Below are positions 2,853 through 26,174 of a stretch of 46,116 nucleotides of DNA, in pieces. The stretch is from Nanobdellota archaeon (GTDB lineage: Archaea > Nanobdellota > Nanobdellia > Pacearchaeales > GW2011-AR1), in assembly GCA_030611805.1 (NCBI GenBank), contig JAUWPB010000005.1, forward strand, positions 1 to 46,116, given 5' to 3'. A program made the translations under genes and the position numbers. The notes under the pieces are model-generated. The model worked only from the letters and a program-made list of their open reading frames with translations. It had not been told where the DNA came from and did no database searches. Each line of letters begins with the position of its first letter. The first letter of the stretch is position 1.

Positions 2853-3499
2853 TTCTCCTTACATAAACCTCTTTCTGAAGCAGGTTTGTTTGCTTCAAAA
2901 AATATTAATTTTCCCCAGCCAAGATAAGGAGCAATTTTGAAAACAGCTTTTCCGACCAATTGTTCTTCTTTTATATTTGTTTCAAAACTTAACTGTTGAT
3001 TATTATTGTCACCTATTGTTTGGAATATATACTCTCCATTTTTATTTTCAATTTTTATTATTCTATGAATTATAGGGTGTTTAGCTGCTCCGTTGAAAAT
3101 TACCACATCCCCCACTTCTAATTTTTCCGGAGTCGCTCTTATCACAAACAAAATATCTCCTTTGTTTAAACCTCTTTTGAAGACAAAGTCCTGAAAATCT
3201 AATTGATTTATAACATAAGGCTCATATTTATTTTCATGCCCTTCCCACCAATTATTAAAATCAGATAAAAGATTTCCTTTATGATACATGCTGCAAGATT
3301 CAACAATTGCTAATGGTATCTCAGTTCCTGTGAATAAACTCAGGGTCGGGAAAAATATGAATTTAATAAAAACAAACAAGAAGATTAAACCAAATATCCA
3401 ACCCTTTAAACTATCATCTTTCCAGATTAAAAACCAGAATTTTCCTGAAATATCTACAAATCCTTTCCAAAATTTCTTCCATCCTCTTTTTAGTGTCAT
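2849..3499 (-). CDS. signal peptidase I-like (S26 family) membrane protease
   Basis: N-terminal TM, ESCSMYHKGN catalytic Ser box, GDVVIFNGAAKHPIIHRIIKI, QTIGDNN. Confidence 0.8.
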   Translation of the reverse strand: MTLKRGWKKFWKGFVDISGKFWFLIWKDDSLKGWIFGLIFLFVFIKFIFFPTLSLFTGTEIPLAIVESCSMYHKGNLLSDFNNWWEGHENKYEPYVINQLDFQDFVFKRGLNKGDILFVIRATPEKLEVGDVVIFNGAAKHPIIHRIIKIENKNGEYIFQTIGDNNNQQLSFETNIKEEQLVGKAVFKIAPYLGWGKLIFFEANKPASERGLCKEN

Positions 3500-3695: not shown

Positions 3696-5132
3696 ATGCT
3701 GAATGTGTTTAAACAATTTAAAAAAGAGGATATCCCCAAGCTAAGATATGGAATCTTGCATTCTCAGTTTGGATTTTCCGACGGGGTTTCTATTGTTATG
3801 TCACAGGTAGAACATGTAATGACAAAATATCTTAAAGTTCCTAAAAAAAATATTTTTTATTTGGTTGGAAAATCTAAATATAAATCTCCTCAAATCTCTG
3901 AGAAAGAAATTTTATAGGACTGGCATCCAATTAACAGACTGATGCTTAGACATTATCACAAGGGTTGCGGGGGGCCCAGAAGTGAAAAAATAGAGGGAGC
4001 ATTAGAGCGTGCAAAAAAAGATATTGGGGATTTTATTGAAAAGAATAAAATTGATATAATGATTGTTCATAATTCTTCGCATCCAATTAATTTTATCAGC
4101 AGTATTGCTTTGTCCAGATATTATAGAAATTCTTCCAGAATGGGTAAAAGAACTCCGAAATATATTCTCTGGTGGCATGATTCGCATTTAGAGAGAAAGA
4201 GTTTTCAAAATCCTGCAAATGATATTGAGCAATATTTATTAGAGGGTGTCCCCGGAAGATATGTAGAGTATATTATTTTTATAAATAGTCTTCAGCTTGA
4301 GAGGGCAAAAAAATATTTTGCAAGACTTAATAGATTAAAGCCAGATTTTTTAAATAAAATATCACTTAACAGGAATGTTGTTTATAATACTACAGATATT
4401 TTTATTAAATCTTTTAATGCTCTAAAATCTAAGGATTTTAATGGGAAGGTTACCCAGTTTATCCATGATTTTAAAATAAAAGAATTGTTAAAAGAGCATA
4501 GATTGAGATTCCCAGAAGTTTTATTTTGTCTGCAGCATACAAGGATTTTAGACAGAAAAAGAATTGATTTTGCATTAAGATATTGTTATGAATTGCTTTG
4601 CAAACTTAAGAGAAAAAAAGATATTCATGCTATTTATTTTTTAGTATCAGGACAGCACGCAGATAATTCTAAAAAAAAGCTTATTAAACTAAATCAAAAG
4701 TTGTCTAAGATATATCCAGAGTGCAAGATATTTTTAGTTTTTGCTGAGGATTATTATGATAAAACTATAATTATTTTTGAGGATTACCCTAAAATTTTCG
4801 CAAAACTAAAAGGATTTTCAACATTTTTTAGCGAGGTAGAAGGTTTTGGAAATAATTTACTGGAGGTATTAGCATCTGGTTTGATTCCGGTTATTTATAA
4901 ATATCCTGTTTTTAGAAAAGATATTGAAAAATACAGGCTGAACATGGTTACTTTAAATAAATATGAAATTGATGAGGCTTCCCTTTTAAAAACAGTGGAA
5001 GTAGTTACAAACACTAAAAAAAGGAGAATGATGATTGAGGGTAATTTAAAGATATTAAAAAAGAATTTTCCCCACAGGATTATGGCTTTTAGATTACGTC
5101 AGGCATTTACTAAAAAGAGAATGCATGGTTGA
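3696..5132 (+). pseudogene. glycosyltransferase (GT4-like) interrupted by an in-frame TAG at 3915-3917
   Basis: ORFs 3696-3917 and 3942-5132 share one frame and are separated only by TAG plus DWHPINRL; C-terminal EVEGFGNNLLEVLASGLIPVIY is a GT-B/GT4 signature. Confidence 0.7.
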
Positions 5133-20601: not shown

Positions 20602-20916
20602 ATGGAAAAAGACATTGGAAAAATAAACAAGAACGATACAACTGAGATTCTTTTAAGGATTGATGACTTTAGCGATAGAAAAGGACTTACAATAAGAGAG
20701 TTTGTAACAAGTGAGAGATATACTGGGTTTACTAAATCAGGTGTGAAAATCATGGCAGCAGATTTCCCAAAGTTTAAGGAAATGATTAATTCTATAACTG
20801 ATGAAGATATGAAAGAATCTAAACCAGAGGAAAAGATATTAGAATGTGGACAAGAAACTTTGGCAGAAGAAAAAGTTGAAGTTGAAAAGCCAGGAGAAAA
20901 ATTGCCTGATTATTAA
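20602..20916 (+). CDS. PC4/p15-like transcriptional coactivator domain protein
   Basis: DDFSDRKGLTIREFVTSERYTGFTKSGVKIMAADFPKFKEMINSI matches the PC4 pattern (RKGxxIREF..G.TKxGv.l....w..lk). Confidence 0.65.
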   Translation: MEKDIGKINKNDTTEILLRIDDFSDRKGLTIREFVTSERYTGFTKSGVKIMAADFPKFKEMINSITDEDMKESKPEEKILECGQETLAEEKVEVEKPGEKLPDY

Positions 20917-23305: not shown

Positions 23306-23638
23306 TTAATAATCAGGCATCATCTTTGAATGCCCAAACTGAATAACTAAATTAATTTTTTTCTCAAGTTCTTTTCCTAAAATAGGAGTGTCACATGCTC
23401 CAAAACAAGTTCCAAACCAAATTAAAAATTTAGCAGAAGTCTTTTCCTCTAAATAATCTACAACAGAAGTTGCATAGGGTTTGAGCCCGTCAGGAAACTG
23501 CAATAAAACTATTTTTGCTTTTTGTTTTCTCGTGACCTTTAGGTTATTTATCTTAGAAACAACTTTATTTAATTCTAAATCATAATTCTCCCCAATTTCT
23601 TTAATTGTGTATTTCATAAAAATTAAAATCAGTTTCAC
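23306..23638 (-). pseudogene. dph2: Dph2 (diphthamide synthase) N-terminal domain only, probable remnant
   Basis: IVLLQFPDGLKPYATSVVDYLEE...FGTCFGACDTP...LVIQFGHSKMMPDY*; stops after the first of three repeats. Confidence 0.65.
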
Positions 23639-23721
23639 CTTTTATAACTTGTGATAATGCAACTTGTTAGCATTTTAATATGGTAAGAAAGTTTTAAATA
23701 TTATGGATTTATTACATAATT

Positions 23722-23772
23722 GTCTAACTTCGGTTAGATAAGAGGGTTAGGACTTCGGTTTTGGCCCTTTTT
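23722..23772 (+). ncRNA. candidate small RNA with two tandem UUCG-capped hairpins and a T-run
   Basis: TCTAAC-TTCG-GTTAGA (23723-23738) and GGGTTAGGAC-TTCG-GTTTTGGCCC (23744-23767), then TTTTTATTTT; TATA-like TTTAAATA at ~23693. Confidence 0.6.
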
Positions 23773-23823
23773 ATTTTCTTGCATTTTTAGTAAAAATTTT
23801 GATTATTTTAAACTTTGTAAATC

Positions 23824-24330
23824 TTAGGACATTAAGGAACCTACAAGAAAACTAGCTTTTTCTTCAGCACTATGTAATTCTTTTTGAATTTCTAATAATT
23901 TATTAATCTGTTTGATTCGATTTTCTTCACTAAAATCTTTCCATTTTTCAAAAACTTCTGGCAAATTTTCATTATACAAAGTTGGAAAACACATTTTTTT
24001 ATATCCTTCATCAATTGCATTAATTAAAATTTTAGGCATTCTTTGACCATATTTTTCAACCAATCCAGAAAGATCTAATACTGAAATTGGAATGATTTTT
24101 CTAGAGTTACACTCTAAACAACCCTCTGGTTGTTCTGCTTTATTATAATGACTTCCTAAACAATCTCTTCCAGAAAAAACATGATAATCTCCCCCAACAG
24201 AAGTTATAGAATCACAACTCCCACAATAAGCTATTGTTAAATGGGTATGAAAACCATCATCATTTTTAACTAAATAAGTTCTCATTTCTTTAAGAACGTC
24301 CACAACAAATGGTGTTTGAACTTCATTCAT
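23824..24330 (-). CDS. Cys-rich hypothetical protein, probable zinc binding
   Basis: HTHLTIAYCGSCDSI ... CLGSHYNKAEQPEGCLECNS. Confidence 0.55.
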   Translation of the reverse strand: MNEVQTPFVVDVLKEMRTYLVKNDDGFHTHLTIAYCGSCDSITSVGGDYHVFSGRDCLGSHYNKAEQPEGCLECNSRKIIPISVLDLSGLVEKYGQRMPKILINAIDEGYKKMCFPTLYNENLPEVFEKWKDFSEENRIKQINKLLEIQKELHSAEEKASFLVGSLMS

Positions 24331-24380: not shown

Positions 24381-26174
24381 ATGAAAAAAATAAGACAGCC
24401 AATAATTACAGTTTGCGGGCATGTAGACCATGGAAAGACTTCAATCTTAGATTGTCTTAGAGATAGCTGTGTTCAGGAAGGTGAAGCAGGAGGGATAACC
24501 CAGAAGATTTCATTTACTTCATATCCTATTGAGCAATTAAAAAAAGCCTGTCCTTTGATTGAAACATCTGGGATAAATCTGGACATCCCGGGGTTTTTGT
24601 TTATTGATACTCCTGGGCATGCGGCGTTTACTAATTTAAGAAAGCGTGGAGGGAGCTTGGCAGATTTGGCAGTTTTAGTTATAGATATTAACGAAGGAAT
24701 AAAACCCCAGACAGCAGAAGTGATTAAGATTCTGAAGCATAATAAAACTCCTTTTTTAATTGCATTAAATAAAATAGATAATATTTCAGGATGGCGGGGC
24801 CCCCCACAGATTTCAACAGGAGGCGATGTAAAAAAGACATTGTCTTTAAAAAAAAGTATTGAGTCGCAACCGCAAAACATAAAACAAAACTTTGATGAAA
24901 AATATATGACTCTGATAGGGTCTTTGAATAGTTATGGTTTTGATGCCGAGCTTTTTTATAATATTGATGATTTTACAAAAAAAATAGCTTTAGTTCCATG
25001 TTCTGTGAGGACAAAAGAAGGCATACCTGAGTTGATTATGATGCTTTGTGGTCTGAGTCAAAAGTATTTGGGGAATCGGCTTGCGTTGGGAAAAGAAGCT
25101 AAGGGAGTTATACTTGAGATAAAAAAAGAGAAATCTATAAATTACATTGAAGCAATCTTGTATGATGGTGAGCTTGCAAAAACAGATGAGATCGCGGTTG
25201 CAAATATTGAGGGCGAACCCATAATCACAAGGATAAGAATTCTTGAAGAGATAGAACCTTTATCTTCAAAATTTAAACCAAAGGAAAATGTTCGTGCTTC
25301 TACGGGATTAAGAATGCAATTTATTGGTCCCAAAGGAGTATCTTCTGGAGATAAAACAGAAATCCTTCCAGGCATGCCTTTTGTAATTTATAAAAATAAT
25401 AAAAAAGAAATTAAAGAAAAATTCAAAAAAGAGATTTCTGAAAATATTCAGACTCAAAAACAAGGCATCATTATAAAAGCAGATTCATTAGGAAGTTTAG
25501 AGGCTCTTTTGGTTTTGTTAAAGCAAAATAATATTCCTGTTGTTAAAGCAGGGATAGGAAACATAAGCAAGACAGATATAATTTCTGCAAAAGCAAATTT
25601 AGAAATTAATGAACTTGATGCAGTAATTGTCGGGTTTAATATTTCCATAGCCGAAGATGTAAAGGATATTCAGGGTAAAATAAAAATTTTGACTGACGAA
25701 GTAATTTACAAATTAATCGAAGACATAGTTGAGTTCAGAACAGAAAAAAGAAAAGAAATAGAGAAGAAAAGATTGATGGGTTTGACGACTTTGTGCAAGT
25801 TAAAAATACTGTCTCAATATGTTTTTAGGAATACAAAGCCGGCTATTTTTGGAGTTAAGGTAGAGGCAGGAAAATTAATTTCAGGATTAAATTTAATAGA
25901 TGATGAAGGTGAAAAAGTCAAAAGAGTGAAAAATATTCAGTCAGAAAATAAATCTGTTACACAGGCAGGCGAGGGCATGGAAGTTGCAATATCAATGCCT
26001 GGGATTAATTTTGAAAGACAAATAAAAAACAGAGAATTTCTTTATTCTGATATTTCGGGTTCGCAGTTTAAAAATTTCAAGAAAAATAAGGATTTGCTTT
26101 CTCCAAGCGAGATGAAAATTTTACAGGAAATTGCTGAAATCAAAAGAAAAGATAAAACTGAATGGGGAAGATGA
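24381..26174 (+). CDS. infB: translation initiation factor IF-2 (aIF5B)
   Basis: VCGHVDHGKTSILD, FIDTPGHAAF, ALNKID; archaeal EAGGITQKISFTSYP. Confidence 0.95.
   Translation: MKKIRQPIITVCGHVDHGKTSILDCLRDSCVQEGEAGGITQKISFTSYPIEQLKKACPLIETSGINLDIPGFLFIDTPGHAAFTNLRKRGGSLADLAVLVIDINEGIKPQTAEVIKILKHNKTPFLIALNKIDNISGWRGPPQISTGGDVKKTLSLKKSIESQPQNIKQNFDEKYMTLIGSLNSYGFDAELFYNIDDFTKKIALVPCSVRTKEGIPELIMMLCGLSQKYLGNRLALGKEAKGVILEIKKEKSINYIEAILYDGELAKTDEIAVANIEGEPIITRIRILEEIEPLSSKFKPKENVRASTGLRMQFIGPKGVSSGDKTEILPGMPFVIYKNNKKEIKEKFKKEISENIQTQKQGIIIKADSLGSLEALLVLLKQNNIPVVKAGIGNISKTDIISAKANLEINELDAVIVGFNISIAEDVKDIQGKIKILTDEVIYKLIEDIVEFRTEKRKEIEKKRLMGLTTLCKLKILSQYVFRNTKPAIFGVKVEAGKLISGLNLIDDEGEKVKRVKNIQSENKSVTQAGEGMEVAISMPGINFERQIKNREFLYSDISGSQFKNFKKNKDLLSPSEMKILQEIAEIKRKDKTEWGR

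Follow-up and report, generated by a model that had tools for sequence, protein, structure and literature searches.

A predicted family of small UUCG-hairpin RNAs with its own promoter in Candidatus Pacearchaeota

The window considered here, the whole analysed stretch of 46,116 nucleotides, belongs to the genome of a DPANN archaeon of the Pacearchaeota/Nanoarchaeota group. Its gene for translation initiation factor IF-2 (aIF5B; 24381-26174, + strand, NF003078) is a conserved neighbour of the locus described below, and among named genomes the closest relatives of the protein are found mostly in Candidatus Pacearchaeota and Nanoarchaeota MAGs, with up to 80% identity. The locus itself is flanked by two genes on the minus strand, as a preliminary description of this DNA had stated. 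The one at 23306-23638, divergent from the RNA, encodes a Dph1/Dph2-like N-terminal fragment (diphthamide synthesis; PF01866, TIGR00322). This product has 110 amino acids, corresponding to roughly the N-terminal fifth of the Pfam domain, and stays short in relatives (93-110 amino acids); it may be one part of a split gene or a small protein in its own right. The other, at 23824-24330, is convergent with the RNA, and its product has no match in Pfam or NCBIfam.

Between these genes, two tandem UUCG-capped stems occupy positions 23721-23771 of the + strand, and TTTTTATTTT comes next. The hairpins and the T-run had been noticed in the preliminary description, and direct reading confirmed them. 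Hairpin 1 (23721-23740, +) consists of TGTCTAAC-TTCG-GTTAGATA and folds, as described, into an 8-bp stem with one GU pair under a UUCG loop. The terminal hairpin (23741-23770, +), AGAGGGTTAGGAC-TTCG-GTTTTGGCCCTTT, carries the same loop on a stem that had been credited with 10 core pairs, extendable; the hairpin is real, but the count was too low, as the fold has 13 bp including five GU pairs, or 14 bp with A23740 paired to T23771 rather than closing hairpin 1. The two hairpins directly abut (23740/23741), with no spacer. A terminator-like scan matched 23740-23771 plus the U-rich 3' tail, which extends over 23768-23777 (+) and is the likely termination site. No ORF of at least 40 amino acids in the window overlaps the hairpins, in agreement with the earlier statement that none covers them. 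The element is present once in the 855-kb assembly (33 contigs, about 90% complete).

The + strand is predicted to fold with -26.0 kcal/mol (z = -4.5), a value reached by none of 200 shuffles, and the minus strand at the same locus with -9.7 kcal/mol (z = -1.5). UUCG hairpins with a stem of at least 7 bp number exactly two in the 46-kb window, namely hairpin 1 and the terminal hairpin. Across 300 windows simulated with a first-order Markov model, single hairpins of this kind averaged 0.33 and tandem pairs never appeared; this simulation, together with the covariation presented below, led to the rejection of a chance origin. A DNA inverted repeat was also rejected, because the G-U pairs mean that it is the + strand RNA that folds. 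This argument, already put forward in the preliminary description, holds in direction among the homologues: G-U pairs account for 162 of the 1039 cells in the alignment, and in 53 of 57 homologues the better fold is that of the + strand.

The first homologues were retrieved by BLASTN with the 96-nt element against relatives, and a pattern for two CUUCGG loops added more. Model R1 was built from eight two-hairpin copies, and matches were counted at E<=1e-4. They come from no fewer than 42 genomes, which represent 23 genera (tallied by hand from the R1 match table), all inside the window's own archaeal family, whose named relatives are Candidatus Pacearchaeota. Carrying genomes mostly hold one to three copies. 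Searches of class and phylum samples gave no convincing homologue outside this family; the weak matches there comprise a promoter with one hairpin (G463) and a poor match (G291). When 25 genomes of the family, most of them without an earlier match, were searched with greater sensitivity, no convincing copy emerged either, the best match (G012, 43 bits) overlapping an H/ACA-like RNA. Weak matches (29-43 bits) were left out of the counts. Those in G012, G031, G042, and G007 are cross-hits to H/ACA-like RNAs and that in G047 is a cross-hit to a three-way-junction RNA. The RNA family is lineage-restricted and patchy, and it is not universal even within its archaeal family.

The RNAs responsible for these cross-hits are putative and have no Rfam match. 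In the three-way-junction RNA, two UUCG hairpins lie inside the stem GTAGGAG...CTCCTAC (L083 ~1030-1060; L084 ~3030-3060; L082 ~3010-3040; L170 ~3940-4040). It is strongly conserved between genera, and a TATA box lies upstream in L083. The H/ACA-like RNAs consist of one or two long hairpins capped by CUUCGG and interrupted by a large internal pocket (L075 ~2950-3110; L076 ~2930-3110; L077 ~2980-3150; L078 ~1930-2110; L079 ~2980-3060; L087 3003-3103). UUCG caps are therefore not confined to the tandem-hairpin element in these genomes, so that the loop may be a generic stabiliser and need not be a recognition signal.

When folded, the homologues repeat one design: a promoter, a 5' hairpin, zero to four optional hairpins, a longer terminal hairpin, and a U-rich tail or T-run whose form is constant. 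Clean UUCG hairpins are mostly two or three per copy, with a range from two to six or more. The terminal hairpin has a purine-rich 5' arm and a pyrimidine-rich 3' arm. Its internal mismatches cluster 4-6 bp below the loop, where UU/UU is the commonest by far (19 of 43); such a tandem U-U mismatch is frequent in homologues, and in the window copy this position is occupied by UU/GG, which forms wobble pairs. The UUCG loop of this hairpin is lost in a few homologues (L153, L158, and L169). Arrays of hairpin units behind one promoter, arising from local duplication, are seen in G028 and G166, and adjacent duplicate copies, each with its own promoter, in G108, G153, and G154; the local duplications lie at L072 2885-3110, L151 3994-4235, L124 3909-4167, L128 3966-4231, and L134 733-1083.

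The preliminary description had proposed that a covariance model built from related genomes would reveal compensatory changes in both stems, and the homologues bear this out strongly. In a MAFFT alignment of eight sequences, 94.5% of the cells are paired and 11 of 19 pairs show change on both sides; none of 500 shuffles reaches the observed pairing, and sliding the partners abolishes the signal. As this alignment was not fitted to the structure, it provides a cleaner test than the alignment of 76 model matches, which was fitted to the model, includes a few weak rows, and has 93.9% of its cells paired. Within the latter, 18 of 19 pairs show pair-keeping change on both sides, compared with about 14 in shuffles, and there are 369 both-sided cells against 99.7 and a covariation score of 0.707 against 0.271, the shuffle controls taking no account of the relatedness of the sequences. 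Shifting the partner by one to three columns destroys the covariation. In the same 76 rows, both-sided compensatory change affects all eight pairs of hairpin 1, with 96% of cells paired, and 10 of the 11 modelled pairs of the terminal hairpin. A purely inherited pattern is unlikely because each position shows a range of pair types, often four to six. Judged from these alignments, the predicted secondary structure is under selection, the base pairs being kept and the letters changing freely.

Upstream of hairpin 1, the predicted promoter comprises the TATA box TTTAAATA (23693-23700, +), separated from the hairpin by a 20-nt spacer, and a BRE-like purine/A-rich element at 23684-23692 (+) in the context AAGAAAGTT, recognized from the archaeal promoter consensus. 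Homologues aligned on hairpin 1 show a G/A-rich stretch with an AAA core at -34 to -30. The TATA-like box had been pointed out in the preliminary description, and its spacing is fixed in relatives: a side-by-side comparison of 15 homologues shows the 20-nt spacer in almost every one. These first 15 had been retrieved through similarity in sequence or hairpins, with no promoter model involved, and have the box at the same position. Relative to hairpin 1, a TATA-like word starts at -30 to -26 in 50 of 57 homologues, with 0-11 in other 5-nt windows, a figure that is partly circular because models R1 and R2 include promoter columns and bias later matches towards TATA. The putative RNA thus has its own predicted BRE/TATA promoter at a fixed distance. 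Given this archaeal distance, transcription should begin at hairpin 1, and the predicted start is 23720-23721 (+), at the base of the stem.

Promoter, hairpins, and U-tract all lie within about 90 bp in two-hairpin copies. So compact a unit would suit a transcription decoy or insulator, in which a promoter is followed immediately by a strong terminator and what counts is transcription itself, the RNA being incidental. This explanation is improbable: hairpin 1, which is dispensable for archaeal termination, is nevertheless conserved by compensatory change, and many copies hold further intact hairpins. Likewise, the terminal hairpin with its T-run has the form of an intrinsic terminator, but the element differs from one in that it carries a promoter of its own, conserves its first hairpin, and ends no upstream protein gene in the window.

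The genomic surroundings of the RNA are variable. It lies beside the Dph2-like gene and/or IF-2 in 11 genomes from eight genera, the window included, and at several different loci across genomes. The preliminary description had held that absence of both stems from the corresponding intergenic regions of relatives would count against a small RNA; some relatives do lack the RNA at the IF2 locus, but at least two of these carry it elsewhere, and many relatives keep both stems. Several genomes have it directly upstream, and on the same strand, of IF2 or of a PC4-family gene, which has to be considered as a sign that it is a cis element of its neighbour, either a 5' leader or attenuator of IF2 or PC4 or the terminator of the upstream gene. 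However, the strands of the upstream and downstream genes are mixed at 51 loci (16, 14, 12, and 9 for the four combinations), the downstream gene having the same strand as the RNA at 30 and the opposite strand at 21, and the two neighbours in the window are both encoded opposite to the RNA. Moreover, sequence reading of G013, G043, and G044 reveals a separate TATA-like box before PC4 or IF2, after the T-run. A cis element is thus very unlikely, and a leader or neighbour's terminator was rejected as a general role since the flanking genes show no preferred orientation.

PC4-family genes lie near 13 of 68 loci. In G013 and G043, and likewise in most members of one genus represented by about ten genomes, such a gene immediately follows the RNA. 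A partnership with PC4 was not accepted and is kept as a lead only, because 10 of the 13 PC4-adjacent loci belong to that one genus and shared ancestry may suffice. The window has a PC4-like small protein at 20602-20916, 2.8 kb upstream of the RNA; Pfam misses it, though a homologue scores for PC4. Patchy presence, one to three copies per genome, and the local tandem duplications (G108, G153/G154, and G028) would also fit a small selfish or mobile repeat with its own promoter. That origin is hardly credible, as the window's assembly contains a single copy and the position by Dph2/IF2 is kept in eight genera; viral contigs gave no match to a strict pattern, one that would miss divergent copies.

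Comparison with catalogued RNAs has been unproductive. The Rfam scan recommended in the preliminary description found, with Rfam 15, only two tRNAs above the gathering cut-off in the window, consistent with an unannotated RNA. At a relaxed threshold, the window and six homologous loci gave nothing credible, with none of 4227 families matching, and searches of part of PubMed Central, which cover the literature only partly, returned no report of this RNA. In comparative terms, these sequences represent a new, previously uncatalogued archaeal family of predicted small RNAs, with strong support. They resemble the candidate structured RNA motifs of the Weinberg type in Rfam (PMC2864571), which are also comparative-genomic non-coding RNA candidates with covariation, but no Rfam family matches the Pacearchaeota RNA. 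Archaeal H/ACA and C/D guide RNAs are likewise small and stable and contain hairpins. An H/ACA guide was rejected, the stems being uninterrupted or having a short U-U mismatch, with no guide pocket and no ACA after either hairpin, as was a C/D box guide, RUGAUGA and CUGA boxes both being absent from 23720-23780. As for type III toxin-antitoxin features, some copies form tandem arrays (G028 and G166), and there is no consistent downstream protein.

Taken as a whole, the locus very probably encodes a small, structured non-coding RNA, about 50-60 nt long, in a gene that runs from its own promoter to the U-rich tract; the conserved fold, the strand preference, and the promoter favour the small RNA on the + strand first proposed in the preliminary description. 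Transcription would proceed from the BRE/TATA promoter, starting at the base of hairpin 1, and stop within the U-rich tract downstream of the terminal hairpin, so that relatives with more hairpins would give a longer RNA. The closed stems at both ends would stabilise it.

How such an RNA acts can be considered in the light of archaeal intergenic sRNAs such as sRNA162 of Methanosarcina, which pairs with mRNAs through accessible domains (PMC3510493). The Pacearchaeota RNA resembles this type in its independent archaeal promoter, small size, stem-loops, and U-rich end. A trans-acting antisense sRNA would pair with mRNAs, the hairpins serving as protection and the tail or linkers as seed; the combination of promoter, terminator, and U-rich tail seen in Hfq-type and methanogen sRNAs agrees with it, as does the presence of an Lsm-family (Sm-like) gene in the window's genome. 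In contrast to sRNA162, however, the RNA is almost without unpaired region: hairpins begin at the predicted +1 and follow each other at 0-5 nt in homologues, leaving almost no single-stranded stretch for base-pairing. Stem sequences also vary freely with compensation, which is unexpected for a conserved pairing region. With no free seed and such turnover, a protein recognising the RNA's shape is more probable than pairing with targets, and the antisense role is considered unlikely.

The near absence of single-stranded regions favours instead a protein-binding, trans-acting RNA, and the short rigid stems, U-rich tail, and varying hairpin number make a structure-recognised ligand the leading candidate. 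The repeated stems would bind an RNA-binding protein in trans, as scaffold or sponge, and the U-rich end could be held by the genome-encoded Sm-like (Lsm/SmAP) protein. In Sulfolobus, archaeal Sm-like proteins are reported to bind RNA targets (PMC4500138). This mode of action is put forward tentatively, with somewhat less than an even chance; for the RNA gene and the protein-binding class taken together, a compromise estimate leans slightly in favour.

CsrB, CsrC, and RsmZ are bacterial RNAs that titrate a protein by exposing GGA in loops for CsrA. The likeness to them, which implies no homology, lies in the serial hairpins, the identical loop, their variable number, the terminator end, and the trans-acting logic, but here the loops are UUCG without GGA and the RNA is far shorter. 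A sponge of the CsrB/RsmZ type, defined by GGA in hairpin loops and a CsrA partner, was rejected on the basis of these UUCG loops, though the RNA may work in a similar way.

DPANN archaea, most of which cannot be cultured, have genomes of roughly 1 Mb at most, and their regulatory RNAs are almost uncharted. With about 60 examples, borders and a promoter delineated, and a covariance model ready for use, the family can be sought directly in metatranscriptomes that already exist. Modular growth, starting at two hairpins and reaching six or more, combined with free sequence turnover, provides a clean case of selection acting on RNA shape alone. A bolder proposal, improbable at present, is that of a multivalent protein-binding RNA made of a variable number of interchangeable UUCG hairpin modules, perhaps linked to the PC4-family single-strand-binding protein, which several genera encode right next to the RNA; if true, it would be the first sponge or scaffold RNA in DPANN archaea.
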